DNA from: Candidatus Raymondbacteria bacterium RIFOXYA2_FULL_49_16
Lineage (GTDB): Bacteria; Fibrobacterota; OXYB2-FULL-49-7; XYB2-FULL-49-35
NCBI GenBank assembly: GCA_001789205.1
Contig: MFYT01000040.1
Coordinates: 1-58,528 of the forward strand
Direction of reading: 5' to 3'
Length of the DNA stretch: 58,528 bases
The notes under the pieces are model-generated. The model was not told the origin of the DNA, did no database searches, and was given only the letters and a program-made list of their open reading frames with translations. Of the stretch, positions 15,501 to 44,575 are shown piece after piece (the stretch's first letter is position 1; each line of letters starts with the position of its first letter). Both the position numbers and the translations under genes were made by a program.

Positions 15501-17263
15501 GTTATTGCCGCCCCGGTGCAATATTCGATCCGGGTGTTTTTTATGACACCACCCCTTGTCCGGTGCAAACGCATGCCGAAGGTGGCGCTGTAGCGGATGG
15601 TGCAGCTGTCAACGTAGAGACTCTCGGCCGTGTTGTCGACCATGAGGCAGCCGTAATCGTATGAATCGTTCTTGCCGCCTTTTTCAATAGTAACGTTGAT
15701 GAGGGTGCAGGCTTTTGCCGTGGAGGAGATGGTAATGCCCTGCCAGGCGCCCGCCCCGTCGGTCGGATTTTCGCTGGTGAACACGACGGGTTTTTCCTTT
15801 GTGCCCCGGGCGATGAGCGAGCCGTGCACGAGGAAATCGTAATTGGCGTTGTTCATGCGGACAACAACGCCGGGACCGATGGTCAGTCGCACCGTGTCCT
15901 GGATATAGAAGTCACCGGTGAGTATATAAGGGCTCCCGGCGCTGTCCCAGGTCACGTTTTTGGGACTGCGTAGCGAGCCGCTGATGACGGTCCCTGCGCC
16001 CATCGTGGTCACCACTGTGTCGTACGAGACCGGGCCTGTGTTCGCATAGCCGTCAACAGGCCTGACCGCGACATAATATGTGTCGCCTTTTACGGTGACG
16101 GCCTCGAACGTCTCGGGTTGTCCCGGGAGCGCTCCCAGATATTTGTTCGTGCTGAACCTCGCCGAATCGAAAATGGCGATTGGGATCGTGTCCCAGCGGA
16201 CCTGGTACAGATAGACCGGATCCCCGGAAGCGGGAGTGCTGTCCTGATCAGGCGCGATCCAGGTAAGCGTGAAACCTGACGAGGTTGGCGTTGCAATCAG
16301 GGAGGAGATCGGATCCGGGCATATGGTATCGGGGTCTGCCGTTGGGTTGGCATAGTAGGTCGCATTGCCCTTGAGCGTTGCGTTGATCCAGTATATGTTT
16401 CTGTTGGCTGTGTCGGGTGCGCACCAGTAGTTGCTCATGGCTTTGACCGGGTTGGTGGTCGCGCCGTTGAGAATAGCGGTGTTTATGTTTCCCGAGTTGT
16501 TTGTATGGATGCGGTTGCCTCCGCTTCCGGATACGGCCGTGTCGCCAAGGACCGCGTTGGAATTGTCGGTCCCTGCGTCCGCGCCAATGGCAACGCCGTA
16601 CCTGCCGTTGTCGTGGATCCAGCAGCCGGCGATGTAGGGACGTGAGGCGGAATGCGCATACACGCCGTGCCAGACCGCTGTCTTGATTTCCGAGTTGGTT
16701 ATCTGGACCCTTCCGGTGCCGCAGTTCAACAGCCGGATGTTCGAATGTCCGGCGCGCTCGAAGATGCAGGAATCAATGCTGGCCGTATCAGGGGTATCAA
16801 TATACAGCATGGCCTCGTAGTAGCTGCCGCCCCAATACGACTGGCTGCCGCCAAACCGGAAATGGGCGTGTTTGATGAACACCTGCGAGGACGAAAAGAG
16901 CTGTATGCCCTGGAAGATCCCGCCGATGGTGGGGTGGGTGAGGTCGCCGTCGTTGTTGTCGTCACCGTTGATGGAGTCGTCAGTGATGTGTGTAAACACC
17001 ACCATGCTGTCGGCCGTGCCGTTGATGTTCAGCGTGACGCCATTGGCTTTGATCCGGTAGTCGCCGGTGAACTTGAAGACCGCGCCCGGACCAATGTTCA
17101 GAATGATACCAGTGCGCAGGTAGACATTGTGCGATATTATATATGGGTTGCCTGCGGCGGTGAGTGTGGTGTCGGCAATGAGGGAGTCGGGTAGAGAGCT
17201 CTGACCAAAAAGCGCCTGGGCCGCAATAGCCAGAATCAGAGGAAGCGTGTATATGGTTTTCAT
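9512..17263 (-). CDS. Giant secreted parallel beta-helix protein with type IX sorting domain
   Basis: This 2583-residue protein has a signal peptide (MKTIYTLPLILAIAAQALFGQ). Residues 25-310 and about 430-1500 contain repeated right-handed beta-helix rungs with recurring units (LTIGPGVVVRMNN, ARGTKEKPVVFTSEN, AWQGITISSTA, IDSCIF, IRNC). A fibronectin III-like domain lies between them (about 315-425, PISSLIATPTSSGFTLTWIAPD). The second half holds Ig-like domains (TISVTVLFDDETGHTLD, STPISVSTNTSDPSKITATV). The last 85 residues form a FlgD-like sorting domain (NTPNPFNPITAIHYAL, ASGMYVYRL). Proteins of this plan are surface adhesins or polysaccharide-binding scaffolds; no catalytic site is evident. 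It follows the CsgG-like gene by 18 bp and precedes the lipoprotein by 13 bp. Confidence 0.9.
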   Translation of the reverse strand: MKTIYTLPLILAIAAQALFGQSSLPDSLIADTTLTAAGNPYIISHNVYLRTGIILNIGPGAVFKFTGDYRIKANGVTLNINGTADSMVVFTHITDDSINGDDNNDGDLTHPTIGGIFQGIQLFSSSQVFIKHAHFRFGGSQSYWGGSYYEAMLYIDTPDTASIDSCIFERAGHSNIRLLNCGTGRVQITNSEIKTAVWHGVYAHSASRPYIAGCWIHDNGRYGVAIGADAGTDNSNAVLGDTAVSGSGGNRIHTNNSGNINTAILNGATTNPVKAMSNYWCAPDTANRNIYWINATLKGNATYYANPTADPDTICPDPISSLIATPTSSGFTLTWIAPDQDSTPASGDPVYLYQVRWDTIPIAIFDSARFSTNKYLGALPGQPETFEAVTVKGDTYYVAVRPVDGYANTGPVSYDTVVTTMGAGTVISGSLRSPKNVTWDSAGSPYILTGDFYIQDTVRLTIGPGVVVRMNNANYDFLVHGSLIARGTKEKPVVFTSENPTDGAGAWQGITISSTAKACTLINVTIEKGGKNDSYDYGCLMVDNTAESLYVDSCTIRYSATFGMRLHRTRGGVIKNTRIEYCTGAAITMNFYCATAFSNISIYDCGWKGYFIQSLYGNGYHTDGNNITFADSVNKYWFYGNTYDFFIDAGDTFTAAPGVCMEVTRSTYETEFQVNGVVLAQGTKDQPIRWESVYASGQFDKDSTWRSIQLNNVTDTSRFRHVIFSEAEISQSAGGVLTCNGASPLIDSCAFTNNWAYAIWVNANNSTAAKPRITNCSFSNNMFGCVYIVNTTVLQPDPIFRNNTAVNNGNNGIQMDLTNDLSQDAVWEADSMWYLIKELDNTTPDFEVGAGNRLTIEAGTKLRFFDPAQDLRVYGELRVNGTTVSPVVLTGPAQTPGSWGGIEFASGSNRNSYIKNAAVAYAGGNSNGAAIEINNCEPAFDSVHVLQSANDGFQIAGNAKVEIRNCLMEGCSTGIKIAELTSADSLFNNVFLDAALSLVDFPAPNPPYMTGNRDSSGAKGTITMRGGNTLAASSLAGSLTLDSVYNWRISNGANGYLTIPAAATLTVQPGTRVEIAGGYAQSDIRVRGTLQAMGTAADSIIFTATADTSGSWQGISFFDASTGSTLRYCGILNAGGSTGKGAIHLETGSATIDRCRIFKSKREGITVKGKIDTLVSATIVRTVFDSVAGGIAIQTKYSNDSLGGNLFRACSTRAISFPSCNFPRLTANRDSSGTGIWVVGSDYDSLARIAPDTVTLDSQYAWNFDLKDSKILIDTHQVLNIRPNTRIGMYVDNANDDGAVEIRGILNAVGTATKPIEFYGIDTTYHWAGFVFRNDSSKTDSSRLEYVSISDAGDWASGYEAMVQIYTNKLIFRNNTLSNPQKIGLLVSDTVYPVIGSLHFDSTFDTSKVAAMVLTYPYDNSPGDSLPLTIANTFWGDSTGPYDPSLTGGFYSVNYATAASDTLQLANFGMGGKIGRWINYVPFVSTDKLGPRVDSIRFANARIGASGHLSFSVYVNDRSTGVSNVDDALYAHATGLDTASGFGFDSGEPLGSDSTIMVYTKAINVLQLTNPKTDTGYIVGEDTLWVYAFGRDEHGFWGAIDSAFLRLQWAPDTLAPRAVVSTIPDSLVFMRDSLGDSITVNVLFDDETGHTLDQRSDIYSYTVSIDYWYKYNAASQYWYGYTSYGSYYDGQFNADTSIYRFSFKLSADTSNYYLRNPDTTGKYGYRIRTQVQDAAYHTRYDTTIVYIGERTGGADTSFNGPELAYKTAPQIATSDSATLTFSVTYSTFATSASPIVYAEYFIDSLGVLNSGTPINVPTDSIIVTLVFQVPVDTAWPSFSSHTVFLAVLDSAGNWSHVDSLSFLKVDSVVAIDTATVSSSAIDTVDFGGVKLVISDTAQFTNPQQQTVSTLPITVTTLAQGQDFGIMDSTLVKLGPIYVFSPSGAEFKGLQLAIPYDTILTRTASVGSGKICILTYTGSRWAIVSTTYRPVPSPAAGLVYNLVEHFSFYRVVADTTRPTVARTTATTNYTEGSTVQLTADISDNIFVAAANIECQYRQGGEITPTPISVSTNTSDPSKITATVAFNRVLSRESGLQYRFIATDFLGNTDTSAYYSIDVTYANATSMPILPEETYRIVAFPFAMSSKTVSNVLYPSILGNANAPYNDSLFRIFKYEGKTGSTPGEFYTEMTDADMEIERGEGYVAITRLNYIGAPNTIILGNGNITAKALDVPFKIPLRSGWNLVGNPFNLGTGLEWLSLASDAGGLGDSLTWYRLTGARTSVRFDTVSTVDHDSMGAMQGYFVFNAGAPDTLIVPASVEFSTTVPKAAIATDTLAKFNWAISLEINDGSKRSETITLGARSTASDGYDRNDNIHPPSLMETRFACVPRTTWKTASGSYRADFTCLFEDGRTWPLTMRSLDKKRNVSIHLAAIENMPQGFMTVLYDPERMVGVDLQTDSAYDDLLAKNGSKNYEVVVGAHDYVQNRLNGKIGRPEFFLAQNTPNPFNPITAIHYALKRDTRIDLSIFNIRGQLVRTLVQGKMRFGRYVALWDGRDNTGKAVASGMYVYRLVSPEFVCKKKMVIVK

Positions 17264-19138: not shown

Positions 19139-21415
19139 TTATTTCAGATACACGAGCCGGTGCGTCAATATGGTTGAACCGCTTGCAAGCCGGACAAAAT
19201 AGACGCCGCTGACAACAGATTTGCCGTATGCGTCCCTGCCGTTCCACAGAATAGTGGCGTTTTGGCGGGCGGTCGGTCCGGAAAAGAGCGCCTTGATCTT
19301 CTTCCCAGAAGCGTCAAACACGTCGATTCTGACAGGCGCGGCGTTTCCCGGCAATGTAAAACTGATTGCTACCGTGCTGTTGAACGGATTGGGGCTGCCC
19401 GACAGGGTCGCCTTGGTTGTGGCAATGGTACGGGGCTTTTCAATGGCCACATTGGCGCCAAGATGATAAAAGGTGTTTGGCACTGTACGGCCGCCAAAGT
19501 ACGACATTTTCATGCCCGCTGAAAGGGTGACTGGGTTTCCAAGCGACCCCCACGTGTGGGGCACGTAGCTTGTGCGCATGGTCGCTGTCCCGGAAGTGAC
19601 CGCGGCAATACTGAACCCGTATTCGGAGCCGCTTCGCCGTATTTTTACTAAAATCGAATTATCGCCCTCGTTCAGCTGGACATCCTTGAGGAAGGCCACT
19701 CTGCTGTAGGTGAGGAGGCCGGTTGTGTCGAGGGCTTCAACACCGTTTACGTGCACTCTGAGGTCCCTCAGCCCGCCTATGTAGAGTCTGGCTGGCTGCG
19801 CTGTCTTCGAATAAATACGCGTAAAGGCGTAGGTTACGCTATTTGCCGCTGTTGCTGGCAGTGTTGGGTCAAGCATATCGATATAGTCGGCGGGTGAATA
19901 ATATGGGGTCCAGGTATGACCGTTCTCCTGGTCGCCTTCGTAGGGGTCTGCGCTTGTTTCGCTTATATGCAATGTGTCAATATCGGGCGAGGAAAAGGGG
20001 CCGAGAAGCAGCCACCGCCTGCACCCTCTGCCGTAATAGTGGGACGCGGTAAAGTTGGCGTAGGTCCCGGAGAGTTTGATTGGCGCCATGACGTCTGTTT
20101 TTACCATGTCCACTGAGTCGCCCACCACGGCGATCTGGTCTGGAAACAAGGTGCCAAAACCTTTGGCTGTTCCCCAGCGAAGGATTTCTATATCAAGGGG
20201 ATTCAGGTTCATTGTCAGGCAGCCCACCGCATCCACAGCAATGGGATCGCTTCCGGCAAGTATAAAATTCCGTTTGAGAAAGCCGGTCCGCTGCGCATCC
20301 GGGTGCGAACCATCGCCTTCGAGCGAGGCCAATGCGTCGACAATACAGTAGTCGCTGGGGTGGTAGCTGAAGAGATTGGCCACTGTTTTTGCCAGCAGGT
20401 CGTGGTCAAGAAGGCTGAGTGACGAGCTCCGCGTTGTTCCGTAGACAGTGTTGGCGTATGTGGCGCGCGAAACAGTTCCAATGTAATTTTTTTGCACGCA
20501 ATTGATGATGACATCCCGGGTCGTTTTCATGACTGGTATATTGACTAAAATATTGCAGTGAAGGACCGCGTCCGTGGGATTGTAACCGGTGCCACTGATG
20601 GTATTGGCAGTGGCAAGCGCGCCTAGGCCGATCTTGTTGTCAGTTGGCACGGGATAGATTTGCGGTACGCGGCCCACGCGTTCAGAATCAGGAATCTCGT
20701 TGTATGGCAGGCCATTGTCCATGATCTCGTTATAATTCGAATTGATATATTCAATTGTTTTTCCCGGGTTGCGTGCGCGTGCCGCTTCCACAAGTGTCTT
20801 AAAGGAAAAGGTGCTGGACAGTCCTGGGAAATAACTGTTCCAGCGCGACCCATAGAATTCGGACCGTTCAAAGATATCAAATTCTCCTGAGAAGCCGCTA
20901 TACGAACCGCCGGCAAGCAGGGAGATGCGTTGGGCATTGGTGCTGTCGGCAATATAGTCAAAAACAGCCTGGATAATACGCGGGTCAGTCTGGTCTCCCA
21001 GGGTGTAGGTATAGCCAGGATAAAAGCAAAGGTTTGGCAATAGCGCTACCCAGCAGTTCGCGCCAAAGGCGTTGATTTTGTATTTCAGTTCCGATGTGCT
21101 GGTGCCCCAATGTTTGTCCAGTGAAAGCGCGCGCAGCACCATTTCCCTGATTTCAGCAGGGGTAAGGTCTTCCTGGCTCCCCTTGGAAAAGGAGAGACCA
21201 GCGTGTTGGGAGGTGATGAGGCTCACATGGGTTGTTATCGATGCGCCGGATACGGCGTCGTATCCATCGATCATCTCTTCGCCCGATTCAGAGAAAAAGG
21301 TGTCCACAACAGGGTCAATGATGTCCTTGGTGCGTGAGGTGACAATGTCGAAAGCGACCAAACATGCGATTATGCTGAAAAGAAGCAATGGTTTTTTGTT
21401 TTTTAGCAATTTCAT
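19139..21415 (-). CDS. Secreted DUF362-domain protein with type IX sorting domain
   Basis: This 758-residue protein has an N-terminal signal or anchor (LLLFSIIACLVAFDIV). Residues 50-62 read DGYDAVSGASITT, resembling the flavin-attachment motif (SGA-S/T-xT) of FMN-binding domains in NqrC and RnfG, although the rest of that domain is not evident. Residues 270-460 match DUF362 (CNILVNIPVMKTTRDVIINC, CIVDALASLEGDG, FILAGSDPIAVDAVGCLTMNLNPLDIE). Then comes a beta-rich region with a PA14- or galactose-binding-like look (ARLYIGGLRDLRVHVNG). The end is a sorting domain (SPNPFNSTVAISFTL, SGVYFVRLASG). DUF362 proteins often accompany iron-sulfur or corrinoid enzymes. AAGGACC precedes the ATG. Confidence 0.85.
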   Translation of the reverse strand: MKLLKNKKPLLLFSIIACLVAFDIVTSRTKDIIDPVVDTFFSESGEEMIDGYDAVSGASITTHVSLITSQHAGLSFSKGSQEDLTPAEIREMVLRALSLDKHWGTSTSELKYKINAFGANCWVALLPNLCFYPGYTYTLGDQTDPRIIQAVFDYIADSTNAQRISLLAGGSYSGFSGEFDIFERSEFYGSRWNSYFPGLSSTFSFKTLVEAARARNPGKTIEYINSNYNEIMDNGLPYNEIPDSERVGRVPQIYPVPTDNKIGLGALATANTISGTGYNPTDAVLHCNILVNIPVMKTTRDVIINCVQKNYIGTVSRATYANTVYGTTRSSSLSLLDHDLLAKTVANLFSYHPSDYCIVDALASLEGDGSHPDAQRTGFLKRNFILAGSDPIAVDAVGCLTMNLNPLDIEILRWGTAKGFGTLFPDQIAVVGDSVDMVKTDVMAPIKLSGTYANFTASHYYGRGCRRWLLLGPFSSPDIDTLHISETSADPYEGDQENGHTWTPYYSPADYIDMLDPTLPATAANSVTYAFTRIYSKTAQPARLYIGGLRDLRVHVNGVEALDTTGLLTYSRVAFLKDVQLNEGDNSILVKIRRSGSEYGFSIAAVTSGTATMRTSYVPHTWGSLGNPVTLSAGMKMSYFGGRTVPNTFYHLGANVAIEKPRTIATTKATLSGSPNPFNSTVAISFTLPGNAAPVRIDVFDASGKKIKALFSGPTARQNATILWNGRDAYGKSVVSGVYFVRLASGSTILTHRLVYLK

Positions 21416-29418: not shown

Positions 29419-32400
29419 TCACTTCTTCAGGGTTTGTTTCCCTATATCGAATGCGCCTTTGGTCCCCACAGGAATGGTAAAAACGGCATTGGCCCCAGAT
29501 TCATCGTCGGCCACTGCTATTTTGTAGTGACCGGGTTTTCTGCACACAATCTGGAAGCCGCCGTCTTTGTTCGTGAAGGTATTCATTGGCTGGGCGTTAG
29601 GATCGTCGAGGTGCACAATCGTAATCGACACAAACGCGAGCACTTTGCCATCCATACTCGCAAGCGTGCCAAGCAGAAAGATGTTTTCTCCTTGCGGCGC
29701 TGTGTCAACGCTATCGACCGTTTCCTTTCGTTTGGGAAGGGGCGCGCCGCTGCCCGAGAAGGTCATGGTCGGAGAACGGTAATAGCCGTTGTTTTCGACC
29801 GGGATATCAAAGGTAATAGGATGGCGGCCTTTGGCTTCCACAGGCGTAATCAAATATGTTCCTGTTCCCAATCCCATGAACTGGAACCGGCCAGCGCCAT
29901 TGGTAAAGGTTTTTGTAGGCTGAGCGTCTTTTTTATCTCGGGACGTAATTATAATGGCCTGGTACGCAAATGGACTTCCATCGATATCGAGCAGACTCCC
30001 GAAAACCAGCACGGTTTTCTCAGCGCCTACTGAAAGCAGAAAGCCACTCTTGTACTGGGGGAAAAGCGTGAAGTCCATTTTTTCTTCCACAGACCCTATG
30101 GGCGGATTCAGCGGGGTCAATTTCAGCCGTTTTAGCTGATACGATGTATAGAAAGGGAGTACAGCTGGCCCCAGTTTATTGGAAATTGCTTCATACCCCT
30201 GATCGGTTGGATTGATCATTATCTGGCATTGGGATAGATTTTTGATGCCCTTTGCCACCACAAATCCCCCATATATGGGCCGGGAAAGGCAGACTGTCTT
30301 GTCCACATAGACCAGGGCGGTCTTTAAACTCAGGGCTGTCTGGTGCTGTAAAAAGGTGCCTTTTGCGTATGTGGGATCATCCATGGCTTGTGAAAGCTCA
30401 ATGCTCCCTTGGTTTCCCGAATATCCAAGCGTGCCTCGATAATCATTGTTGTCTGGTCCAAGCTGGGCTGCAACAGACGCGGAAACCCTTTCCGGAGCAG
30501 ACTTGGTATTATCATAGTTCCACTGGAAACTCGTGTTATAATCCCATTGGGGTTCCTGGGGCTGAGGCTCTGTGGTAAATTGGTCCAGTTTGCTTGGCTG
30601 ATGCCTTCTAATGATTTCACCCACGCTGAAATCATTGGGACCAGCCCGGAACGACCACTGGGCGCTGAAGATAATGGATGAATTGGCTTTTCGGGCATTC
30701 AGGTCTGAAGCATGCTGGATGGTTGCGCTGGTTCTTAATGCATTTTTCCAGGTTTTCTGGAAGGTGAGGGAGAGCATGGTAACATTTACTGTATCCCGGC
30801 ACAAGTAGTACCTTCCGGCAATACTGACGTTGAATTGACCAGCCAACGGTATGGTGACATCAGAGGAAAATTTTAACGCTTCCAGATTGCGGATGAGCGT
30901 GTCTTCAAAGTTTTTCAGGAATTTCGGTCCAAAGTATTCTGCCTGGGTATTCCAAATAACCGGTGTGGGCAGTCTGTCCGCGCTCACGCCTTTATTTTTG
31001 GAATACTTATAAAACACGGAAGAGCGCAATGTGAAACCAAGCCGCGTAGCGAAGCTTGGGCCAATTTTATTGATGTAGCTGCCAGTAGTGTTCAATGCAA
31101 GGGGTCCAAGGGGGGTTGCACGGGTGAATTCGTATCCAAGAATGCCCTTAGAGGGAAAGGCCTGGGTATAATAGCCATGGGTATACACATTGGACACCGC
31201 GCCCTGGTAGCTAAAGGAGACAAAGGGTTTTTCCACATCATAGTCATAGCCTCCATCATGGAGGTGGCTGGGGAACCCGACATTTGCGGAATACCGGGAT
31301 ATGCCTTTTGCCAGCAGAGCGGTTTCGTATATGGAGGAAAATTCCATGGTTTCCTTGCGGCCGGCAAAATCTTTGGTAACAATTTTAACATCGTTGTTAC
31401 CGGCAATGAAAGGATATCCGCGAATATCGTGTGTTCCCGCATCCAGATACATTCTACTCACCATGGCGTCATTTACCCAAACTTCCACTTCAGCGGGGTC
31501 GGTAAGGTAAAATTCATATTCACCCACCGGGTATGTAAGAATGTGGGGCTGCAGCGAGTAATCCTTTGAAGCTCCTATACCACCCATGTGAACAAAAGAC
31601 TGATATCCTATGGTGGGATACAGAATGTCGCCCGCCATTATTCTAAGGGCGTTTCTCTGAGGCTGGTCGTATACCAGGCGAATATCATTGCGTATAACAG
31701 CAGGATCGGCGTTTTGTTGAAATCCGGCAGACCCTTCTAAAACAGTATGATACACGTTCAATGCACCGTCAAAATGGCCATAAAATGGCTGGCGGACCTT
31801 TCTGTTCATATTCACGATAAACAGGGAATCGCTCCTCGATAAATTTTCCGAGACTTTTTGGCGATACTGAAATTGCTGGTTGACGTGGATGTTCACATAT
31901 GCGGACACGGCATTGGGCTTGATGGACTCCACCACATAGGGATCTTCCATACCCCCGCCTGTCAGGTAATGGGTCTGTTTCAGCAGAAAAATCGTGGGGA
32001 CAGTGATTTTTACTTTGTCTGATCGTGAATCAAAGGCCGTGGTGAGGTTGAGCCCATCGAGAACATGCTGTGAGATTCTGCCATTGGCCTCGACTTTGTC
32101 TTTGACCATTTTCACAAATTCGGGCGTTGCGATGGAAGATATTACAGTAAGGATGGGCGCCGAAGGAATGGTGAAGTCGAGCCGGTCTTCTGAAAAAACC
32201 ACATCGACCTTTCCATTGACTATTTCATTAATGATAAGGACAGCCTCAACCTCCTTAATCTGCTCGGGCGGAGCCATATTAAAGATTTCGCGGTAGAGTT
32301 CTTCGCGGGTCTTGTTTGAAAGTTTCTCTTCCTGAAGTTGTTTGCCTGCCTCAAAATCGACGGCAGCTGCATAACCTGGGATATAGCCAATGGAATACAT

Positions 32401-32451
32401 TAATGCAAGGACACCAAAAAAGCGTTTATACATAGGCTTTGAATGGCGCAT
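29419..32451 (-). CDS. Chaperone-usher pathway outer-membrane usher
   Basis: This protein of about 1010 residues begins at ATG 32451 (GTG 32463 and ATG 32433 are alternatives; no strong Shine-Dalgarno separates them). It has a signal peptide ending near PGYAAA. The N-terminal region (about 50-170) resembles usher N-domains (FSEDRLDFTIPSAP, ATPEFVKMVKDKVEANG). The central barrel has the usher hallmarks GIGASKDYSLQPHIL and EYEFYLTDPAEVEVWVNDAM, then DAGTHDIRGYPFIAGNNDVKI in the plug/hinge region, and NWN-type strands. Two C-terminal Ig-like domains of the carboxypeptidase-regulatory type follow (DIDGSPFAYQAIIIT, SMDGKVLAFVSITIV). It starts 36 bp after the chaperone gene. It would assemble the pilins encoded upstream. 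Confidence 0.85.
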   Translation of the reverse strand: MRHSKPMYKRFFGVLALMYSIGYIPGYAAAVDFEAGKQLQEEKLSNKTREELYREIFNMAPPEQIKEVEAVLIINEIVNGKVDVVFSEDRLDFTIPSAPILTVISSIATPEFVKMVKDKVEANGRISQHVLDGLNLTTAFDSRSDKVKITVPTIFLLKQTHYLTGGGMEDPYVVESIKPNAVSAYVNIHVNQQFQYRQKVSENLSRSDSLFIVNMNRKVRQPFYGHFDGALNVYHTVLEGSAGFQQNADPAVIRNDIRLVYDQPQRNALRIMAGDILYPTIGYQSFVHMGGIGASKDYSLQPHILTYPVGEYEFYLTDPAEVEVWVNDAMVSRMYLDAGTHDIRGYPFIAGNNDVKIVTKDFAGRKETMEFSSIYETALLAKGISRYSANVGFPSHLHDGGYDYDVEKPFVSFSYQGAVSNVYTHGYYTQAFPSKGILGYEFTRATPLGPLALNTTGSYINKIGPSFATRLGFTLRSSVFYKYSKNKGVSADRLPTPVIWNTQAEYFGPKFLKNFEDTLIRNLEALKFSSDVTIPLAGQFNVSIAGRYYLCRDTVNVTMLSLTFQKTWKNALRTSATIQHASDLNARKANSSIIFSAQWSFRAGPNDFSVGEIIRRHQPSKLDQFTTEPQPQEPQWDYNTSFQWNYDNTKSAPERVSASVAAQLGPDNNDYRGTLGYSGNQGSIELSQAMDDPTYAKGTFLQHQTALSLKTALVYVDKTVCLSRPIYGGFVVAKGIKNLSQCQIMINPTDQGYEAISNKLGPAVLPFYTSYQLKRLKLTPLNPPIGSVEEKMDFTLFPQYKSGFLLSVGAEKTVLVFGSLLDIDGSPFAYQAIIITSRDKKDAQPTKTFTNGAGRFQFMGLGTGTYLITPVEAKGRHPITFDIPVENNGYYRSPTMTFSGSGAPLPKRKETVDSVDTAPQGENIFLLGTLASMDGKVLAFVSITIVHLDDPNAQPMNTFTNKDGGFQIVCRKPGHYKIAVADDESGANAVFTIPVGTKGAFDIGKQTLKK

Positions 32452-32487
32452 GATTGGCGTCACAGACTTACCAACGTCCGTACCCTT

Positions 32488-33282
32488 TTAATCCCCGAAT
32501 CCAATGATTGCGCGTATGCGGCCCACAGGCGCCTGCGAGGGCCAGGGAAGGTCGAACCTCCTGTGGTATCCGGGAAAAAGGCTCTGCCGTGTCTGTTGCG
32601 AGGTAAGGACCGGGACATATGCCACACTTTTTTTAGTGTCCATCTGGCCGTTTTTGTCAACAGGGGTGATCCGCAGTTTCATTCCCGCAAGTTTTTGCCT
32701 TCCAGTACCTTTGTTGAAAATGTATAACATTAAATGGGGCTGACCAGCGCTATCAATCTTGGCTATGGCAGAATCCACAACAGTCTCGGGTTGTGGATTT
32801 GCGGGAAGGACCACAATAACGCCTTCGTACCGTGTAAGGACATTGAGCCTGCCCTGTGCTGTTGCCCTTTGCTGATCCTCGTCGCCCAGCTTTACCGGCG
32901 CCTGGTCAGCGATTAATCCATAGGCGGTCTCTTTTGCGGGGATTGAATCTCCCACCCATTTGACCTGAACGCGCTGGGTTTCACCTGGCAGAAGCACAAT
33001 CTGCGAAGGGTATACGACAAAGTTTTCAGCTGAGTTGTCGTCTTTATATGTAACCTTTGAGCCGCCGATATCAACTTCACGGCCTTTAACTTGCAACTCA
33101 ATGGCCATGGGAATCTTTGCGTCACCTTTTTCTGATTGAATGGAGACCTCAGCGCTGGTCTTGTTTGCTGCAAGGTCTAAAAAGGTGATGAGCGGGTTTA
33201 AAGAATAGCCCGCGTGCACTGGCAAAGACAGACACAGCAAGGAAAAGCATGCAAACGCTTTGACCGCAACGGCTTTTTTCAT
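32488..33282 (-). CDS. Periplasmic pilus chaperone (PapD-like)
   Basis: This 264-residue protein starts at ATG 33282, where AAAGGGG lies about 8 bases upstream and MKKAVAVKAFACFSLLCLSLPVHA is the signal peptide; ATGs at 33288 and 33315 are alternatives. The mature part has two Ig-like domains of pilus chaperones: YSLNPLITFLDLAANKTSAEVSIQSE, NFVVYPSQIVLLPGETQRVQVKWVGD (the G1-strand region that templates pilins), and AETAYGLIADQAPV with RYEGVIVVLPANPQPE. The chaperone keeps pilins folded in the periplasm and hands them to the usher. It lies 29 bp after the second pilin gene and 36 bp before the usher. Confidence 0.85.
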   Translation of the reverse strand: MKKAVAVKAFACFSLLCLSLPVHAGYSLNPLITFLDLAANKTSAEVSIQSEKGDAKIPMAIELQVKGREVDIGGSKVTYKDDNSAENFVVYPSQIVLLPGETQRVQVKWVGDSIPAKETAYGLIADQAPVKLGDEDQQRATAQGRLNVLTRYEGVIVVLPANPQPETVVDSAIAKIDSAGQPHLMLYIFNKGTGRQKLAGMKLRITPVDKNGQMDTKKSVAYVPVLTSQQTRQSLFPGYHRRFDLPWPSQAPVGRIRAIIGFGD

Positions 33283-33311
33283 GGCCATATCCCCTTTTCT
33301 AAATTGATATT

Positions 33312-33812
33312 TCATAGTCCTACGCTTATGACCGCTGTTATTGCCTCAGAATAAAAACCCGCCAGCTTGCCCGCTGGATTTGCCCAGCTTGCCCTCAGTT
33401 CAACGATATAATTGACTGTTTCCGTTGTCTGGGCCGCCCCTGGGTCCCATATAAATTCATCACCGGAAAGGTTGTGGAGCACATCCAGATCAATGGGCTC
33501 CGCGAGCCCAGTACCCAGGACGCCGCTGACTTTGTCTAAAATAACCGCGGTCATGGGGATCTCCCTGGTACCGCAGGTGAATTTGCATCTGTTCGCGAAC
33601 CTGAAGCTTACGTCAAACCCGTTTACGGCATTGCTGTTGATGATAAAAAGGGCGATCTGCTCGTTGCTGCTGCTTCCTGAAAAATCAAAACCAACCACGC
33701 CCTGACATTGCATGGTGTTAACTAGCGGATCGGGAGGAGAGAGAGCGCCGGGTTTAATGACAACAACCAGGCCCATGAAAAGAAAACAGAAATAAAACAA
33801 CCTGATTTTCAT
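33312..33812 (-). CDS. Second pilin-like subunit
   Basis: This 166-residue secreted protein has a hydrophobic N-terminus (FYFCFLFMGLVVVI) that should be a signal or anchor. It shares a plan with the major pilin at 33928-34494: FDFSGSSSNEQIALFIINSNAVNGFDVSFRFANRCKFT corresponds to LDFSSAATVPVEIGNFIINCNGNSFDVSWTFANSAEFT, and the C-termini GFYSEAITAVISVGL and GLYTESIVFSIVATIN correspond. The last strand would be the donor or groove-filling strand. Four Cys (residues 35-82) may form disulfides. It lies beyond a terminator after the major pilin, so it is probably made in smaller amounts as a tip or adaptor subunit. No Shine-Dalgarno is visible. Confidence 0.75.
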   Translation of the reverse strand: MKIRLFYFCFLFMGLVVVIKPGALSPPDPLVNTMQCQGVVGFDFSGSSSNEQIALFIINSNAVNGFDVSFRFANRCKFTCGTREIPMTAVILDKVSGVLGTGLAEPIDLDVLHNLSGDEFIWDPGAAQTTETVNYIVELRASWANPAGKLAGFYSEAITAVISVGL

Positions 33813-33865
33813 TGATAATTAATATAAAAATAAACAGTGCCAATGCACCACAAAGGAATGGGTGT

Positions 33866-33897
33866 CAAAAAAAAGAGGGCGCAACCGCCCTCCTTTT
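33866..33897 (-). terminator. Rho-independent terminator between the two pilin genes
   Basis: On the minus strand, GAGGGCG (33886-33892) and CGCCCTC (33875-33881) form a 7-bp stem with a 4-base loop, followed by eight T (33874-33867). It stands between the major pilin stop (33928) and the second pilin start (33812), inside what is otherwise one operon. Confidence 0.85.
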
Positions 33898-33927
33898 TCA
33901 CTAACTCGTTTCTTTGAAACAATGCTA

Positions 33928-34494
33928 TTAGTTGATCGTAGCAACAATCGAAAAAACGATGCTTTCGGTGTACAACCCTGCCAACATGCTGGAAGCATCG
34001 CCCCAACGCGCCTTCATGCTGATCGCATAGTTGGTGGTTGCGTCTGTTTGGTCAGTCGGGCTCCAGTTCACGGCGGCACCTGTTTTAGCAAGGGCTAAAA
34101 TATTTCCACCGGTTGCTACTATCGGGTCTCCCAGACCTGAACCAACCGCGGGATCCAAAATTTCAACGCCAACACCCTTGTGCGAACCAGCTGGCTGATT
34201 TGCATTTGGTTCAATGGTGAGCGCTGTCATAAGAATGGCCTCAGCAACATTTTTTGTGAATTCAGCGCTGTTTGCAAAGGTCCAAGAAACGTCAAAGCTA
34301 TTGCCGTTGCAATTAATAATAAAATTGCCGATTTCAACAGGGACTGTGGCTGCGCTTGAGAAATCAAGGGTCATAACGCCAACACCAACGATGTTGTTGA
34401 TCAGAGGGATGTTACCACCTGTCAGCAACTGAGCGCTCATGGCGCTTCCAGCCAGCATGCCTACGAGGGCAAGAGCAAGTACCATCTTTTTCAT
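33928..34494 (-). CDS. Major pilin-like subunit
   Basis: ATG 34494 is chosen because AAGGAG ends 6 bases before it; ATG 34500 would touch the ribosome site. The protein has 188 residues with signal peptide MKKMVLALALVGMLAGSAMSA. The rest is Ig-like and Thr/Ser/Ala-rich, with VGVGVMTLDFSSAATVPVEIG, GNSFDVSWTFANSAEFT, ATTNYAISMKARWGDASSMLAGLYTESIVFSIVATIN. It is the first gene of the pilus operon and precedes a strong terminator, so it would be made in the highest amount. It has few cysteines, so it probably forms the shaft. Recognition rests on its relation to the neighbouring pilin and on the chaperone and usher genes. Confidence 0.75.
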   Translation of the reverse strand: MKKMVLALALVGMLAGSAMSAQLLTGGNIPLINNIVGVGVMTLDFSSAATVPVEIGNFIINCNGNSFDVSWTFANSAEFTKNVAEAILMTALTIEPNANQPAGSHKGVGVEILDPAVGSGLGDPIVATGGNILALAKTGAAVNWSPTDQTDATTNYAISMKARWGDASSMLAGLYTESIVFSIVATIN

Positions 34495-35082
34495 CTGCAT
34501 CTCCTTTTTTAGGTTTATTTTACTAAAAAACTACGCATTTCAATCTTTGCAATGCAAGAGAAACAACCAATGCTTTAAGCGCATCCTGGATAAATTTCCC
34601 TCGGCCCTCCTTTCCATCCCATTGATTTAAAACGCTTAATAGTGTTTATATGTATATTGAGAATCCTGCATTTCATATATCGACATAATTGGTTTCAACT
34701 TGAATTTTTTCCATAAATTTAAGCGCTTAATAAATATAACAATAAAATCAATTTATTTCAATACTTAATTTTATTTAATTGTTAAAGAAAAATTTAAAGT
34801 ATTCTTTTCCATACACAAATGATAAAGCAAGGATCAATCCATAAGCTTTTTTTATATAATCAATTGCTGAAAAACAAATTATGACAATATTTGGTGCTTA
34901 ATAATTTCAAAGAATGTTGCCAAAAAGCTGCACAAGAAATAAAAACCAATTTAATGCATTGAAATTATGTGTTTTATGATAGTTGCAGCAGTTTATCGAT
35001 ATGATGCCAAAAGGAGACAGAAATGAGGTAGTTTTCAACTATTGCTCGGTGAACGCAGGAAAATTTCCTGCAAGGGCATGGC
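34495..35082. promoter_or_regulatory. AT-rich region upstream of the pilus operon with CG-centred palindromes
   Basis: No gene is seen in these 588 bases. A perfect palindrome TTAAGCGCTTAA lies at 34719-34730. Two imperfect matches lie nearer the pilin gene: TAAAACGCTTAA (34628-34639, 10 of 12) and TTAAGCGCATCC (34575-34586, 9 of 12). Centres of the form CG within AAGCGCTT are typical of LacI-family operators. A short tail ATGAGG-TAG near 35023 has a good ribosome site but stops at once. The sites suggest regulated pilus expression, but the regulator is unidentified. Confidence 0.45.
35055..35071. terminator. Inverted repeat after the lyase-like gene
   Basis: GCAGGAAA (35055-35062) and TTTCCTGC (35064-35071) flank one base. 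It begins 12 bases beyond the stop of the minus-strand gene at 35083. No clear T-run follows, so termination is only possible, not certain. Confidence 0.35.
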
Positions 35083-36606
35083 TTATCGAATCAGAACAAT
35101 ATGCTTGGTAAAGACCCTATTCTCGGTATGCATTTTTATTATATAAATTCCGCTTGGACGGGTTTGCGCGTTCCATTCAATCACGGCAACCGCTGACCTG
35201 GAACCCGGAATCGTCATATGATCCACCACCCTTCCGACCATATCCATAATCTGTATATTGCCACGGATTGTCTGCGCTTGATTGCTGAACTCTATCCGTG
35301 TGCTTGCATTGAACGGGTTCGGGTAGGCCTGCAATACCATCTGATCTCTGGAGCCCTGTGGCAGTTCCGCCACCTGTGTTGTTTCGTTTCCATACTCATC
35401 AGCGCCCATGTCCGGACTGGCGTCGCGGGGAAGATTATCAAAATCATCCAAGACCTCGGGAAGCGCGACACCAGTGTTGATCGCCTGCGTGGCTGTTGCC
35501 TTGAGATGAAAATCTCCATTGACTGGATCCTCAAACCAGGATGATATGTTGCTTTGTACGCTGATGTTTCCCGTGGTATCGGGCAAAGTCCCAATTTCGC
35601 ACACAAAAGGACCGACAATGATATTGTTTTTTAAAATATTGCCGGTCATGATCTGATAGGCGTGGACCATGCGGCGGGTAGGATTGGATGTGTAAAAGGT
35701 ATTATTGTATACCTTTACGTCCTTGCAAAAGCACAGCTCCAGACCATAATCGAAACCAGCGTTAATGAAATTGTTCCTGACCACGATGCTTTCCGCGTCA
35801 AAAATACCCGAAGGATTGCCCAGGGCGATACTGCGATCGTTTCCGACGAATACATTGTCTTCAATGATAATGTTCCTGCACCCGCCCTGCGCCCCGCCCC
35901 ACATGAAGATGGCTGCGCGGCCGCCGCCGGTGATTCCCTTGAAATTCAGGAACACGTTGTGATGTATCTGCCATCCCTCCAAGCGCATCATGTCCATCCC
36001 TGCAACATAATTGCCCACATCGCCAGGAAGGTCCAGATTGGGGATGTCGAGGGAAATGGGGGTTTTCTGTTCAAACAGGCAATAGCGGATAATGCCGTTA
36101 TGCGATTCGGGCACCGGTTCCGTCGGGCCGGTCACATATCCCGGCGCCTTGAGACAACGCTTGTTGCAGTCGATGAAGCGGCAGCCGTGCAGAAGCATGT
36201 TGTCATTGTTGCCGGTCCTGAGCATCATGCCGTAGCTCCGAACGTCCTCAATGGTAATGTAGGCGAGCACCGTGCTGTGCGAGTAAATACGGAAGAGGTC
36301 GATTTTAAGCGAATCCTTAAAACCGTTGCCCCTGATAATCGCCTTAGTGGCGTCGTCGGACGCGCCACGTACAGTCACGTTGGGGGCGTTGATATTCAAC
36401 GGGACATACGGCTTCATCTCATAAGTGCCGTCAGCAACGAGAATGGTCTGGCCATCCTGGGCGTCTATGATGGCCTGGTTCAATTCCGCTGCGGTCGCGA
36501 CATTCACGATGATGCCCGAAGGCGGCGGCAGGGCGGGTATGCTGTCCAAAAAGCTCTGTGCTTGCGTTAAGGTTATACTTGTCAGTATGATCATCAGGGT
36601 TCGCAT
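35083..36606 (-). CDS. Secreted PL6-like polysaccharide lyase with type IX sorting domain
   Basis: This 507-residue protein has signal peptide MRTLMIILTSITLTQA. Residues 30-400 form a right-handed beta-helix resembling chondroitinase B and alginate lyases of family PL6: IIVNVATAAELNQAIIDAQDGQTILVADGTYEM, NVTVRGASDDATKAIIRGNGF, LHGCRFIDC, IHHNVFLNFKG, IIIEDNVFVGNDRSIALGNPSGIFDAESIVVRNNFI. The catalytic lysine and arginine of PL6 were not placed with confidence, so a binding-only role cannot be excluded. The C-terminus is a FlgD-like sorting domain (AYPNPFNASTRIEF, PSGIYIIKM). AAAGGAG precedes the ATG. It is a single transcription unit, with a palindrome 12 bp after its stop. Confidence 0.8.
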   Translation of the reverse strand: MRTLMIILTSITLTQAQSFLDSIPALPPPSGIIVNVATAAELNQAIIDAQDGQTILVADGTYEMKPYVPLNINAPNVTVRGASDDATKAIIRGNGFKDSLKIDLFRIYSHSTVLAYITIEDVRSYGMMLRTGNNDNMLLHGCRFIDCNKRCLKAPGYVTGPTEPVPESHNGIIRYCLFEQKTPISLDIPNLDLPGDVGNYVAGMDMMRLEGWQIHHNVFLNFKGITGGGRAAIFMWGGAQGGCRNIIIEDNVFVGNDRSIALGNPSGIFDAESIVVRNNFINAGFDYGLELCFCKDVKVYNNTFYTSNPTRRMVHAYQIMTGNILKNNIIVGPFVCEIGTLPDTTGNISVQSNISSWFEDPVNGDFHLKATATQAINTGVALPEVLDDFDNLPRDASPDMGADEYGNETTQVAELPQGSRDQMVLQAYPNPFNASTRIEFSNQAQTIRGNIQIMDMVGRVVDHMTIPGSRSAVAVIEWNAQTRPSGIYIIKMHTENRVFTKHIVLIR

Positions 36607-39397: not shown

Positions 39398-42300
39398 CTA
39401 CTGCACATCCTGGCGCAGGCGGGGGTCCACCTCGTTGATATCACCGCCAAGACCGAGATACTGCTTGTAGCTGATAACAGCCGAAGCCCTGTTGTCTTTA
39501 TAGCGGAAATAAATAAAGCCGCGCAGTTTATACGCGTCTTTATAGTTTGGATCCATCTTGACCGCTTCCTGAAGGTGCATGAGCGCATAATCAGGTTCGT
39601 TATTTTCAACATACGCAAGGGCAACCGAGTACCGGATAAGGGGTGAAGACGGGTACCGTTCCGCAGCCTCTTTTCCAGTGGCAATTGCCTTGTCTGTTTT
39701 TTTTGATTTTACCAGGCACAGGATAAAATAGTAGACAGGCTCCTCGTTCAACGGCATTAGTTTGACCGCTTTTTTAAAATATTCCTGTGCCTCATCATAT
39801 TTGTCTTCATCAAACAGCTTTTTCCCGTATTTCATATTGGCGTCACCGCTGTTGGGGTCTTCCTGCACCGCCTTTTCAATATAAACTCCCGCCTGCTCTG
39901 TCTTGTTTTTTGCCTGGTAGCAATTGGCCAGTCTCGCACTTATACCGGGAAAGGTGGGACTGAGTTCCTGCACCTGTTCATAATACCCGGCAGCCAATAG
40001 CACGTCTGCTTCAGAATAAGCGATTTCACCCAGATAAAAAAGGGCATCCGCGCTGGTTTTATCCATCTCGATTGCTTTTTTTAAGGCAATCTTGGCCCGC
40101 CGGAAATCCCGCTGTTTATAATAGATTACGCCCAGGGTATACACTGCTTCCGCAGTACCGTCGGTCAGCCCGAGTTCTCTTTCCAGAACCTCACGCGCCT
40201 TGGTCATAGTGCCCTGGTTGAAATAGGCAATGCCCAGCTGAATCCGGATCTCGCTCGAAGCCTGGCCCGTGGCGGTTATTTTATTCAGAATGGGAAGAGA
40301 TTTGTTGTATTTGCCGAGTTTGTCATAGGTGGAAACCAAGTCCATCATTAATTGTAAATCATCCGGTGTCTGCTTATACGCAGCCTCAAGGAGCTTTTCA
40401 GCCTTTGGGTATTTTCCCTGCCGATAGTAGAGCTTGCCCAGCATGACTAAAAGCTCAGTGTCCTGCCGGTTTTTCCTGGCTGCCTGCAGGAGCACAGGTT
40501 CGGCCTTGGCATCGTATCCCTGGCCTACAAACATTTCAGACAGGCTTTTTAACGCCTCAATGTCCCCGGGATTTATTCTCAGCGCTGATTCATAATGGGT
40601 TGCCGCGCCGGCAAAGTCGTTTGCTTCCCGCGCTATTTGAGCAAGTTTCTTATGTGCATTATAATGGTTGGAATCCAGTGAAATGGCTCGTTCGAACTGT
40701 TCTTTGGCCGCAACTTCATTGTTCTGATTCTCAAGAAAGATGGCGCCTAGTTTATAGACTGCATTCACTTGATTGGGGTTGAGCCGAAGCGAGGTCTGCA
40801 AATGCTCAATCGCATCGAGTATCTGCCCTTTGGCCAGCAGTAATACCCCCTGACGGTTAAGAATATCCGGATCGTCTCTCTTCAGCGCGAGTGCTATTTT
40901 GTACTCTGCCATGGCTTCGTCATACTGTTTTTTAGCATAATAATAATTACCCAGGCCTTTATGGGCGTTCGCATTCTGCGGGTCAACCGTGACGATCTCC
41001 TTGTATGTCTGGTACAGCGCATTGGATAGATGCAGTTTCTCATACACCTCTGCCAGGGTCTCAGCGGTTTCTGTATTCTTTTTATCCTGTTGATACGCCT
41101 TTTCCAGAAAATACCGTGCCTTTTCGTACTGGGCGCCAACCTTATAAGCAATGCCCAGGTTGCGGTTGACGGTTACGTCGTTTTTCAGCTGCTGCTGGGC
41201 TATGATCAGGTATTCGAGAGCTGCGCTGTATTGTTCTTTCTCAATAAGGATCGTGGCATACAGGGCGCAGGCCTTGGCGTGGGTAGGCTTTGCAGACAAC
41301 ACTTGTGCCAGATTGGCTTTGACCTTGTCCTTTAGACCGTCGGCATATTCCAGTTCGGCAAGCATATACCGGTAGTTGTATTGTCTGGGTTCTTGTTGCA
41401 GCAGTTCTTCCAGCATCGCCATAAGCTCGGGTTTTTTATCATTGCCTGCCCGTTGATAAATATCCATAAGCCGTTCTTTGATCACGGGTTCGCGGGGAAA
41501 GACTATTTCCATTTCCTTGTAGTGTTCTGCCGCCAGTTCGTCGTCTCCGCCTTTTTCGTACGCCGTGCCCAGGGTAAGCCCGATAGAAAGACTGCCTTTG
41601 TCCTGCGCATAGAGTTCCCGGTAGGCGGCTACCGCGTCGTCCACCCGGTTCTTCTTCTTGTAGAGCGCGGCCAGCATGGCATAATAGTCCTTGTTTTTCT
41701 GCGGCCCCATGGTTTCGAGTATTTCAAGCGCCTTGTCAGATTTGCCTAATTTATAAAAGGCCTGGGCTACTTTGAAGTTTTTCGAAATTTGTGCCGGATC
41801 CGCTTTTTCAAGCAGGGTAATGTATTGCGCCGCCTGCGGCATTTGCCCCAGCGAAAGATAACAGTCTATGAGTGTGGCAATGGTCTTTATGTCCGATCTG
41901 TCTGTTGAAAAAAGATTGAGCAGTATTGGAATGGCCTTTGTATAGCTTTGTATTTCGTACAGAGCGGCGGCATATTGTATTCCATACTCTCTGTTTGCTG
42001 AAGAGAATTGATACGCTTTGCCGTAATAGGCGGCCGCGGTCTTGTACTGCTTTTGATCAGCGTATAATTCACCCAGAAAAGAATAGGCCTTTGGGTCTTT
42101 AGGGGCAAGCTTGACCGCTTGTTTCAGGCTCGCTTCGGCAGTGGCATATTTTTTCGCATCCAGATATACCTTTCCCAGAGTCCTGTGGCCTGCGGCATCA
42201 TTGGGCTGTGCCTCAATGAGCTTTTTCAGCATTGCAACGGCCTTTTCCTGGTAATGAAAGGCCGTGTACAACAGACCTAAATATTCTGACGCTGCACGAT

Positions 42301-44575
42301 GGTCTTTTTTATACAGAAGCACTTTTTCAAACGCATCCATGGCAGCGGTTGAATCATGTTTGGCCAGATACAATTTGCCTACAGCAAAATGAAGATCTGG
42401 ATTGTCGGCCTGAATAAAAAGCGCCATTTTATAAAAATCGATTGCCTCTGGGAACCGTTTTTGCGATGTACGGATATCCCCAAGCGCGGAATAGGCCTCA
42501 AAGCTCTCGCCTTTAATCTCGACCGTCCGTTTATAACAGGTTTCCGCCTCAGGCGTGTTGCCGCTTTTTAGATAGAGATGTGCCAGCTCAAGATACGTGT
42601 CTCCTGCCTTGGGGTTTATATCGGTTTTTTTCTTGAGCCAGAACAGAAGCTTGTCGCTCTGGCCTTTTTTCCGGTACAGGTCGGAGAGTTTGTCTACCAC
42701 AGCTTCGTTCGCAGGCTCGATTTTGACCACATTTTTATACTGGGCAATGGCTTTGTCCGTCGCGTTCGTGGCAACATACAGGTCTGCAAGAGCCAGGGCC
42801 GCATCCGCAGAACCAGGATCATATTTCACAGCGGCGGTCAGCTTTGGCAGGGCTGTTTTAAAGTCCTTGTTTTCTAGATATATCTTCCCCGCATAATACA
42901 GCGCTGTTTTGTGACGGGGCGAAAGCTTAAGCGCGCTTAAAAAGGAACTGAGCGCGGCGTTTTTATCGCCATTAGCATAGTCTATTTCCCCTAAAGCGAC
43001 CAGGCCGCCGACATCCTTTGTGTTCGCCGAGGTAATAATGGCCAGCATTCTCCGCACGTCTTCTTCTTTTTTGTCTCGTGTATAAAGGGCCAGCAGTTTC
43101 CGGGCTATTGTCACGTCCTTTTTTGACTCAAGGTATTTTTCGTAGTTTGAAGCGCCGAGTTCCTCGTTTTTGAGTTCAAAGTATGTATCCCCGATTTTTT
43201 TTAGGAGATAGATTTTTGTTTTGTCCGCAGCGACAGCTTCGTTGAAATGAGAAATGGCGTTTGTCTTGTCTCCTTCGGCAATAAAAATATTACCCACCAT
43301 TTCCTGTATATCGCTGTTTTCCGGGTGGGTTCGCAGGATGTTTTCAAGAATTGTTTTGGCCTTTAAATATTGCTTTGCCTGGTAATACAGAACACCGACA
43401 TCCCCATCGTCCTCGATATATTTTATGTTTGCGCCAATCACCTTGTCAAATTGGGTAATGGCCGCGTTTTTCTGGTTCAGCTTCATATAGATCTTACCTA
43501 GATTGGCCCTGACCTCCAGATCGTCCGGATGTCTATCCAGGTATTTTTTATAGAGCGGCCCAGAGATCTTGTACTGTTGCGCCTTGAAACATGCTTCTGC
43601 GTACAGTTTCAGGTAATCGTTATTTTTCGGGTTCAGGCGATACGCTTTGGCAAAATAGGTGATGGCGGTTTTAATATCTTCCTGGATCATGAAAATCTGG
43701 CCCAGCATGAACTGGCCCTCATCGAGTTTGGGGTTCTTTTTTACTACCCGCAGCAGCGCCTGTTTTGCCAAAGGGTAATTACTCTGTTTAAAACTGGCGC
43801 GGGCAGATAAAAAGAGATAATTGATTTTGGCGGGCAGTGCTTCAAACGCCAGTTCGTAATACGCCGATGCTGCTGCGTAATCTTTCTTATCTTCGCATAT
43901 GTTACCCAGATTAAAACTGACATCGTGCATGAGCGGCTTCAGGTCCAGGGCCATGGCGAAACTGGCCGCTGCGCTGTCGCTGTTGCCGTCCGCGAGGTAC
44001 AGGTAGCCGATTTTGGCCAGATATTCTTCCGGTTGCTTGGCCTTGTGGTTGACCGCTTTCTTATAGAATTCAATCGCCTGTGCGTTGTCTTTTTTCTTTT
44101 CCGCTATTTTCGCAAGCTCGATGAGCGCATTGGCGTTCTTGGGCGCATAGGTGGTATCGAGTGCGATCGCTCTCGCATAACTCTGGGCCGCCAGGGCATA
44201 TGTCGTCTTATTCTTCATTAAAATATCGCCAATCATCCGGTGCACGTCGGCACTGTCCTTATGAGTAACGGCCGCTATTCTCAGATAGGGCAATGCGGCA
44301 GTGTATTTTTTCTGGTTAAAATAGAGGGTTCCGAACACCAGCGGAATGGCCGTATACTTTTTTTTGAGATTGTCGGCGTCTACTAAATGTTTGAGCGCGG
44401 TTTTGTCCGCTGGTTTGCGTTCAAAATAAATTTCAAGGGCTCCTACCGCCTTGGCGCTGTCGCCCCGGCTTAAATAAGTGGCCGCCTGTTTGAGATAGTC
44501 GACCGGAGCTTTTTTCGCGGGCAGAGTTAGAGTCAGGAAAAGAACACAGAGAAATGAAAATTTACCTATAGGCAT
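39398..44575 (-). CDS. Giant TPR-repeat protein
   Basis: This 1725-residue protein is built almost entirely of tetratricopeptide repeats of about 34 residues (e.g. AVGALEIYFERKPADKTALKHL; AAITQFDKVIGANIKYI; AIEHLQTSLRLNPNQVNAVYKLG; ALMHLQEAVKMDPNYKDAYKLRG). I estimate more than 40 repeats. The start MPIGKFSFLCVLFLTLTLPAKKAP is a signal or lipoprotein-like leader without the lipobox cysteine, so it is probably periplasmic. TPR solenoids bind partner proteins, and long ones occur in outer-membrane or type IX-related assemblies. The reading frame is unbroken. It starts 38 bp after the SGNH gene, so the two form an operon. Which partner it binds cannot be read from the sequence. Confidence 0.9.
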   Translation of the reverse strand: MPIGKFSFLCVLFLTLTLPAKKAPVDYLKQAATYLSRGDSAKAVGALEIYFERKPADKTALKHLVDADNLKKKYTAIPLVFGTLYFNQKKYTAALPYLRIAAVTHKDSADVHRMIGDILMKNKTTYALAAQSYARAIALDTTYAPKNANALIELAKIAEKKKDNAQAIEFYKKAVNHKAKQPEEYLAKIGYLYLADGNSDSAAASFAMALDLKPLMHDVSFNLGNICEDKKDYAAASAYYELAFEALPAKINYLFLSARASFKQSNYPLAKQALLRVVKKNPKLDEGQFMLGQIFMIQEDIKTAITYFAKAYRLNPKNNDYLKLYAEACFKAQQYKISGPLYKKYLDRHPDDLEVRANLGKIYMKLNQKNAAITQFDKVIGANIKYIEDDGDVGVLYYQAKQYLKAKTILENILRTHPENSDIQEMVGNIFIAEGDKTNAISHFNEAVAADKTKIYLLKKIGDTYFELKNEELGASNYEKYLESKKDVTIARKLLALYTRDKKEEDVRRMLAIITSANTKDVGGLVALGEIDYANGDKNAALSSFLSALKLSPRHKTALYYAGKIYLENKDFKTALPKLTAAVKYDPGSADAALALADLYVATNATDKAIAQYKNVVKIEPANEAVVDKLSDLYRKKGQSDKLLFWLKKKTDINPKAGDTYLELAHLYLKSGNTPEAETCYKRTVEIKGESFEAYSALGDIRTSQKRFPEAIDFYKMALFIQADNPDLHFAVGKLYLAKHDSTAAMDAFEKVLLYKKDHRAASEYLGLLYTAFHYQEKAVAMLKKLIEAQPNDAAGHRTLGKVYLDAKKYATAEASLKQAVKLAPKDPKAYSFLGELYADQKQYKTAAAYYGKAYQFSSANREYGIQYAAALYEIQSYTKAIPILLNLFSTDRSDIKTIATLIDCYLSLGQMPQAAQYITLLEKADPAQISKNFKVAQAFYKLGKSDKALEILETMGPQKNKDYYAMLAALYKKKNRVDDAVAAYRELYAQDKGSLSIGLTLGTAYEKGGDDELAAEHYKEMEIVFPREPVIKERLMDIYQRAGNDKKPELMAMLEELLQQEPRQYNYRYMLAELEYADGLKDKVKANLAQVLSAKPTHAKACALYATILIEKEQYSAALEYLIIAQQQLKNDVTVNRNLGIAYKVGAQYEKARYFLEKAYQQDKKNTETAETLAEVYEKLHLSNALYQTYKEIVTVDPQNANAHKGLGNYYYAKKQYDEAMAEYKIALALKRDDPDILNRQGVLLLAKGQILDAIEHLQTSLRLNPNQVNAVYKLGAIFLENQNNEVAAKEQFERAISLDSNHYNAHKKLAQIAREANDFAGAATHYESALRINPGDIEALKSLSEMFVGQGYDAKAEPVLLQAARKNRQDTELLVMLGKLYYRQGKYPKAEKLLEAAYKQTPDDLQLMMDLVSTYDKLGKYNKSLPILNKITATGQASSEIRIQLGIAYFNQGTMTKAREVLERELGLTDGTAEAVYTLGVIYYKQRDFRRAKIALKKAIEMDKTSADALFYLGEIAYSEADVLLAAGYYEQVQELSPTFPGISARLANCYQAKNKTEQAGVYIEKAVQEDPNSGDANMKYGKKLFDEDKYDEAQEYFKKAVKLMPLNEEPVYYFILCLVKSKKTDKAIATGKEAAERYPSSPLIRYSVALAYVENNEPDYALMHLQEAVKMDPNYKDAYKLRGFIYFRYKDNRASAVISYKQYLGLGGDINEVDPRLRQDVQ

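Follow-up and report, generated by a model that had tools for sequence, protein, structure and literature searches.

Does a bacterium of the phylum Fibrobacterota encode a chaperone-usher pilus and, if so, of which kind? The question is raised by contig MFYT01000040.1 of Candidatus Raymondbacteria bacterium RIFOXYA2_FULL_49_16, whose whole analyzed stretch of 58,528 nucleotides is referred to below as the window. For attachment in this phylum, the literature names type IV pili and fibro-slime proteins, ushers not being mentioned (PMC4704652). A literature text search for Fibrobacter, Fibrobacteres or Fibrobacterota together with chaperone-usher or usher retrieved no relevant paper; its coverage was short on the subscription literature, including the Nuccio and Baeumler classification, so that this branch may have been noticed earlier. 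We conclude that the locus very probably codes for a non-classical, archaic-like chaperone-usher pilus system that is minimal but complete. Such pili are thereby added to a phylum in which adherence to plant polymers had been credited to those type IV pili and slime proteins.

The operon and the identity of its products

The locus comprises four adjacent ORFs on the minus strand (34500-29419), in which the first-pass annotation had recognized a contiguous major pilin, second pilin, chaperone and usher; the ORF list bore this layout out. The ORF of P1, the predicted major pilin (33928-34500), opens at 34500, the start being probably the ATG at 34494 that sits behind an AAGGAG box. After a gap of 115 nt follows P2, a second pilin of the same family (33312-33812), whose 3' end overlaps by 4 nt the ORF of a non-classical PapD-like periplasmic chaperone (32488-33315). 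The outer-membrane usher of 1,014 aa (29419-32463) lies 24 nt further on; its ORF opens with GTG, and the signal peptide probably begins at the ATG at 32433. By inspection, all four proteins have signal peptides, that of P1 ending in ...AMSA. The P1-P2 gap holds a strong hairpin resembling an intrinsic terminator (33867-33892, minus strand; GAGGGCG-GTTG-CGCCCTC followed by T8) with a dG of -15 kcal/mol, equalled by none of 60 shuffles. A hairpin with a T-run was present in 7 of 15 homologous P1-P2 gaps against 0.43 expected, whereby the hairpin sequences were unrelated. Such a signal after P1 fits its predicted role as the major (bulk) subunit. The 580 nt upstream of P1 (34501-35080) are very A+T rich (G+C of 0.295 versus 0.50) and include an extended -10 promoter-like site at 34761-34733, promoter-like sites being no commoner there than in shuffled sequence.

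Elsewhere in the window, C-terminal sorting domains of type IX secretion (Por_Secre_tail) occur in the proteins encoded at 35083-36606, 19139-21415 and 51331-53862, one of them with a right-handed beta helix, and this type of secretion system is probably encoded by the genome. The window also encodes a probably secreted beta-helix protein of 2,583 aa whose C-terminal domain is FlgD Ig-like (9512-17263), and a 1,725-aa protein consisting almost wholly of tetratricopeptide repeats (39398-44575).

As single sequences, the usher matched PF00577 of Pfam with E=1.6e-4 (21.1 bits versus a gathering cut-off of 27.1) and the chaperone matched PapD_N with E=0.018 (15.5 bits versus 23). The NCBIfam profile search gave no match for the operon proteins, and single-sequence searches of the PDB found nothing for the usher and CsuC as the best match for the chaperone (E=0.3). 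Relatives of the usher reached PF00577 with E=1.1e-10, members of the chaperone family reached PapD_N with E=1.3e-4, and the chaperone profile aligned with that of eight sigma chaperones at an hhalign probability of 97.7% (E=2.3e-12). Against the PDB, the usher family profile matched FimD weakly (E=0.0035), and the chaperone family profile gave chance-level matches. An AlphaFold2 model of the usher, built from an alignment of eight sequences and of moderate confidence (mean pLDDT 65), comprised an N-terminal domain (NTD, 70-155), six strands, a plug (310-376), eighteen strands and the C-terminal domains, with strands counted from DSSP. The plug thereby sits between strands 6 and 7 of a 24-strand barrel, which is the arrangement of PapC and FimD. 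When this model was compared with the PDB by Foldseek, the best 17 matches were all FimD or PapC, with E down to 7.5e-28. Thus, although the single-sequence scores stay below the Pfam cut-offs, the family members, the profile comparison and the fold search settle the identity of usher and chaperone, in agreement with the initial assignment. Since curated models barely detect this usher branch, such systems are probably under-annotated.

The usher had been called distinctive for two C-terminal domains of carboxypeptidase-regulatory type. Both stretches were detected (CarboxypepD_reg, Pfam E=1.8e-12), domain 1 at residues about 818-901 (29761-30012) and domain 2 at about 928-1011 (29431-29682). 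The distinction belongs to the second domain, since the first is present across the usher family. The pairwise score of domain 2 against domain 1 was 112, whereas none of 300 shuffles scored above 41, and extra copies were restricted to the sub-branch of the window usher and three near relatives, two relatives having a third copy. Judged by these comparisons, the second domain is a lineage-specific tandem duplicate of the first.

Position of the usher and the anchoring arginine of the chaperone

Usher trees were calculated from 43, 55 and 31 sequences, with the alpha clade represented by EcpC alone, the beta and kappa clades left out and the sigma ushers taken as those adjoining SCPU genes. 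In all three trees, the ushers of Fibrobacterota, Cyanobacteria (100) and Proteobacteria (97) formed one group apart from sigma, classical and EcpC ushers, the proteobacterial members belonging to Alphaproteobacteria and Vibrionaceae. Support for the group was 80/94 in the careful 31-usher tree and 97 in the quick 55-usher tree, while the branch joining sigma with classical ushers and leaving this clade outside received 99/97 and 93, respectively. The Fibrobacterota ushers came together with an SH-aLRT of 93 and in 76% of bootstrap trees. The earlier suggestion of a divergent clade is therefore supported by the trees. Membership in the classical clade was rejected on the usher trees and the chaperone alignment, the beta and kappa clades lying outside the sample.

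The trees point to a distinct branch of non-classical ushers, which may lie inside or outside sigma sensu lato: joining the clade to sigma was not rejected by the AU test (p=0.325), and EcpC forms a very long branch. The system might thus be a deep branch inside the sigma (archaic) clade, its oddities representing divergence within a known class, and we regard this reading, which is compatible with the mechanism proposed below, as falling just short of an even chance. Besides the AU test, it draws on the pilins of the clade's proteobacterial and cyanobacterial members, which match SCPU profiles, and on the literature, in which cyanobacterial chaperone-usher systems are classed as archaic (PMC10104325, PMC4390875). 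However, the free trees join sigma to the classical ushers and keep this clade apart from both, and two features of the proteins described next, one in the usher and one in the chaperone, also separate it from the sampled sigma systems.

The first feature is a motif like ELFExxFGRxxP (the 'ELF...F' N-tail) just ahead of the NTD, seen in the Fibrobacterota and cyanobacterial ushers of the clade and in those of three alphaproteobacteria. In the window usher it reads TREELYREIF (residues 52-61; 32281-32310), directly before the NTD, and it is helical in the AlphaFold2 model. Outside the clade, no sampled sigma, classical or EcpC usher was found to have it; inside, it was not found in the Vibrionaceae members or in two from sphingomonads. 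In classical ushers, roughly 60% of the surface that binds the chaperone comes from the N-tail (PMC9452303), and by analogy the motif may likewise bind the chaperone.

Variation was also seen at the N-termini of several relatives. The Fibrobacterota ushers L021 (6427-9693), L060 (4847-8095), L061 (3354-6617) and L070 have an apparent second NTD-like segment upstream of the normal NTD, with extra profile matches at E from 3e-4 to 2e-7, possibly forming tandem chaperone-binding domains. The Chitinivibrionales usher L019 (69-3911) carries an N-terminal extension of ~260 residues with two similar segments, and it is probably this usher that accounts for the DUF5666 match in one member of the usher alignment.

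The second feature concerns the chaperone. Arg89 of CsuC and EcpB is super-conserved in archaic and alternative chaperones and binds the C-terminal carboxylate of the subunit (PMC4654587). In an alignment of 41 chaperones, 22 of them from Fibrobacterota, an arginine at this F1 position was present in all eight sigma chaperones, in EcpB and in both cyanobacterial chaperones, and absent from all 22 Fibrobacterota chaperones, which have Gly (eight) or Leu, Ile, Ser, Phe, Asn or Thr instead. The same 22 share an arginine at the position of residue 79 of the window chaperone, expected to lie in strand C1 next to F1. This C1 arginine is common to the Fibrobacterota, cyanobacterial and two alphaproteobacterial chaperones; the position is occupied by tryptophan in all eight sigma chaperones and in the classical ones. 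We infer that the C1 arginine is a candidate replacement for the missing F1 arginine. With a super-conserved residue missing throughout the Fibrobacterota chaperones, nature provides an experiment by which a mechanistic rule can be examined. A bolder reading is that the ushers of Fibrobacterota, Cyanobacteria and some Proteobacteria make up a major lineage of their own, distinct from sigma, classical and alpha, and that in its chaperones the anchoring arginine moved from F1 to C1, both being kept in cyanobacterial and some alphaproteobacterial chaperones and only C1 in Fibrobacterota. We consider this doubtful as a whole; if true, subunits would be captured by a chemistry unlike that of all studied systems.

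The predicted fibre and its occurrence

P1, P2 and their family had no significant match to any Pfam pilin family, PF05229 (SCPU) included, and their profile gave chance-level matches in the PDB. The AlphaFold2 model of P1 (pLDDT 70) is a beta-sandwich, and the top of its list of PDB matches is rich in chaperone-usher pilins, none of them below E=1e-3. Compared directly, the pilin profile showed no significant similarity to SCPU pilins (3%) or FimA-type pilins (19%). The profile did align with the pilins encoded beside related cyanobacterial and proteobacterial ushers (hhalign 97.1%, E=6.1e-11), and the latter aligned with spore-coat-U pilins (98.3%, E=1.9e-14). As a control, pilins were set against chaperones in two comparisons, which scored 1.7% and 0.8%. 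Since this intermediate family alone bridges the gap, the link of the Fibrobacterota pilins to archaic pilins is transitive, not direct. P2 aligns with P1 and its relatives, including an N-terminal extension common to both that resembles a donor strand, and for that reason does not stand out as a tip adhesin. The usher gene has no gene for a two-domain tip adhesin as a neighbour, the rest of the genome yielded no other clear pilin-like gene, and the ~300-aa protein that follows the usher in proteobacterial relatives is absent here.

Going by the families to which the proteins belong, P1 and P2 would reach the periplasm via Sec and be held there by the chaperone through donor-strand complementation until delivered to the usher. 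The N-terminal tail and NTD of the usher would capture the chaperone-subunit complexes, and the usher would then polymerize the subunits by donor-strand exchange, the fibre exiting through the 24-strand pore. P1 would provide the bulk and P2 a minor subunit at the tip or base. The resulting fibre is probably thin and flexible, and it may reasonably be guessed to adhere to polymers or to other cells. Alternatively, the usher might export a non-fimbrial surface coat, spore-coat-U- or capsule-like, as could be expected from the lack of a tip adhesin gene and the distant relationship of the pilins to spore-coat-U family proteins; we judge this quite unlikely, since two single-domain subunits with a common donor-strand-like extension, accompanied by chaperone and usher, make a polymerizing system parsimonious, and the terminator fits one bulk subunit.

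The pilus system, described in the first-pass annotation as unusual for the group, is not confined to one genome: members of the usher family were found in 23 of 168 Fibrobacterota genomes, which represent 10 of 41 genera (among good-quality genomes, 15 of 89), in the families coded f1, f3, f5, f6 and f8. A second usher in the window's own genome was rejected, a genome search having found one only. The family is patchy and deeply split. It is absent from the listed members of the most sampled genus (g3) and from the sole other genome of the window's order, and the nearest relatives of the window usher, all from Fibrobacterota, have identities of 40-47%, the best being 44-47%. The pilin-pilin-chaperone-usher order is the usual one in the phylum and recurs in both deep Fibrobacterota sub-branches, with the usher first in one genome; cluster L066 (4859-10506) has two chaperone genes and three pilin-like genes ahead of one usher. 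Outside the phylum, the best plasmid match was the usher of Leptolyngbya sp. BL0902 (28% identity over 91%, E=1e-80), followed by Azospirillaceae, sphingomonads and Vibrionaceae. Matches were found in 15 of 146 cyanobacterial genomes, eight of them strong, and the sole strong match outside Fibrobacterota in a wider genome sample was a cyanobacterium. Viral contigs contained no relative.

That this genome received the operon recently by horizontal transfer, with a proteobacterium or cyanobacterium as donor, was rejected as extremely improbable: the patchy distribution, the same-order genome without the system and the plasmid-borne copies among the outside relatives would suit it, but the G+C of the operon (0.48-0.50) equals that of the window, and the nearest relatives are all Fibrobacterota, whose ushers group together. 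The acquisition long ago that had been suggested is no more than a possible history: the base composition equals that of the surroundings, and the Fibrobacterota ushers form their group beside the cyanobacterial and proteobacterial ones.

Comparison with known systems

With the alternative (alpha) ECP of Escherichia coli, the system shares its non-classical kind and, in some relatives, weak matches to TcfC-type domains. It differs in the great distance of EcpC in the trees, in the Arg89 that EcpB has retained and in the absence of an EcpD-like adhesin here. The classical pap/fim-type systems have the same usher architecture and likewise begin the operon with the bulk pilin; papA is also followed by an intercistronic hairpin. 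In comparison, the chaperone and pilin sequences differ, a FimH-like adhesin is absent here, and the usher has 1,014 aa versus 878 aa in FimD.

Archaic (sigma) pili, such as Csu of Acinetobacter and CupE of Pseudomonas aeruginosa, resemble the system in a chaperone that is non-classical by profile comparison, in pilins that end in a C-terminal G-x-Y-x-D/E-T pattern and connect to SCPU pilins by way of intermediates, and in an usher with NTD, plug and C-terminal domains. Unlike them, the system lacks a direct SCPU match, a two-domain tip adhesin and the F1 arginine, and possesses the usher N-tail motif, the extra C-terminal domain and a separate position in the usher tree. The plasmid operon of Leptolyngbya sp. 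BL0902 (GFS31_RS20245-20260) and related cyanobacterial operons keep the F1 arginine and have a single C-terminal carboxypeptidase-regulatory domain, and the operon of the cyanobacterial genome L114 has one pilin only. Nevertheless, these cyanobacterial operons share with the Fibrobacterota system both the N-tail motif and the C1 arginine of the chaperone, and that of Leptolyngbya also has the identical order of four genes.
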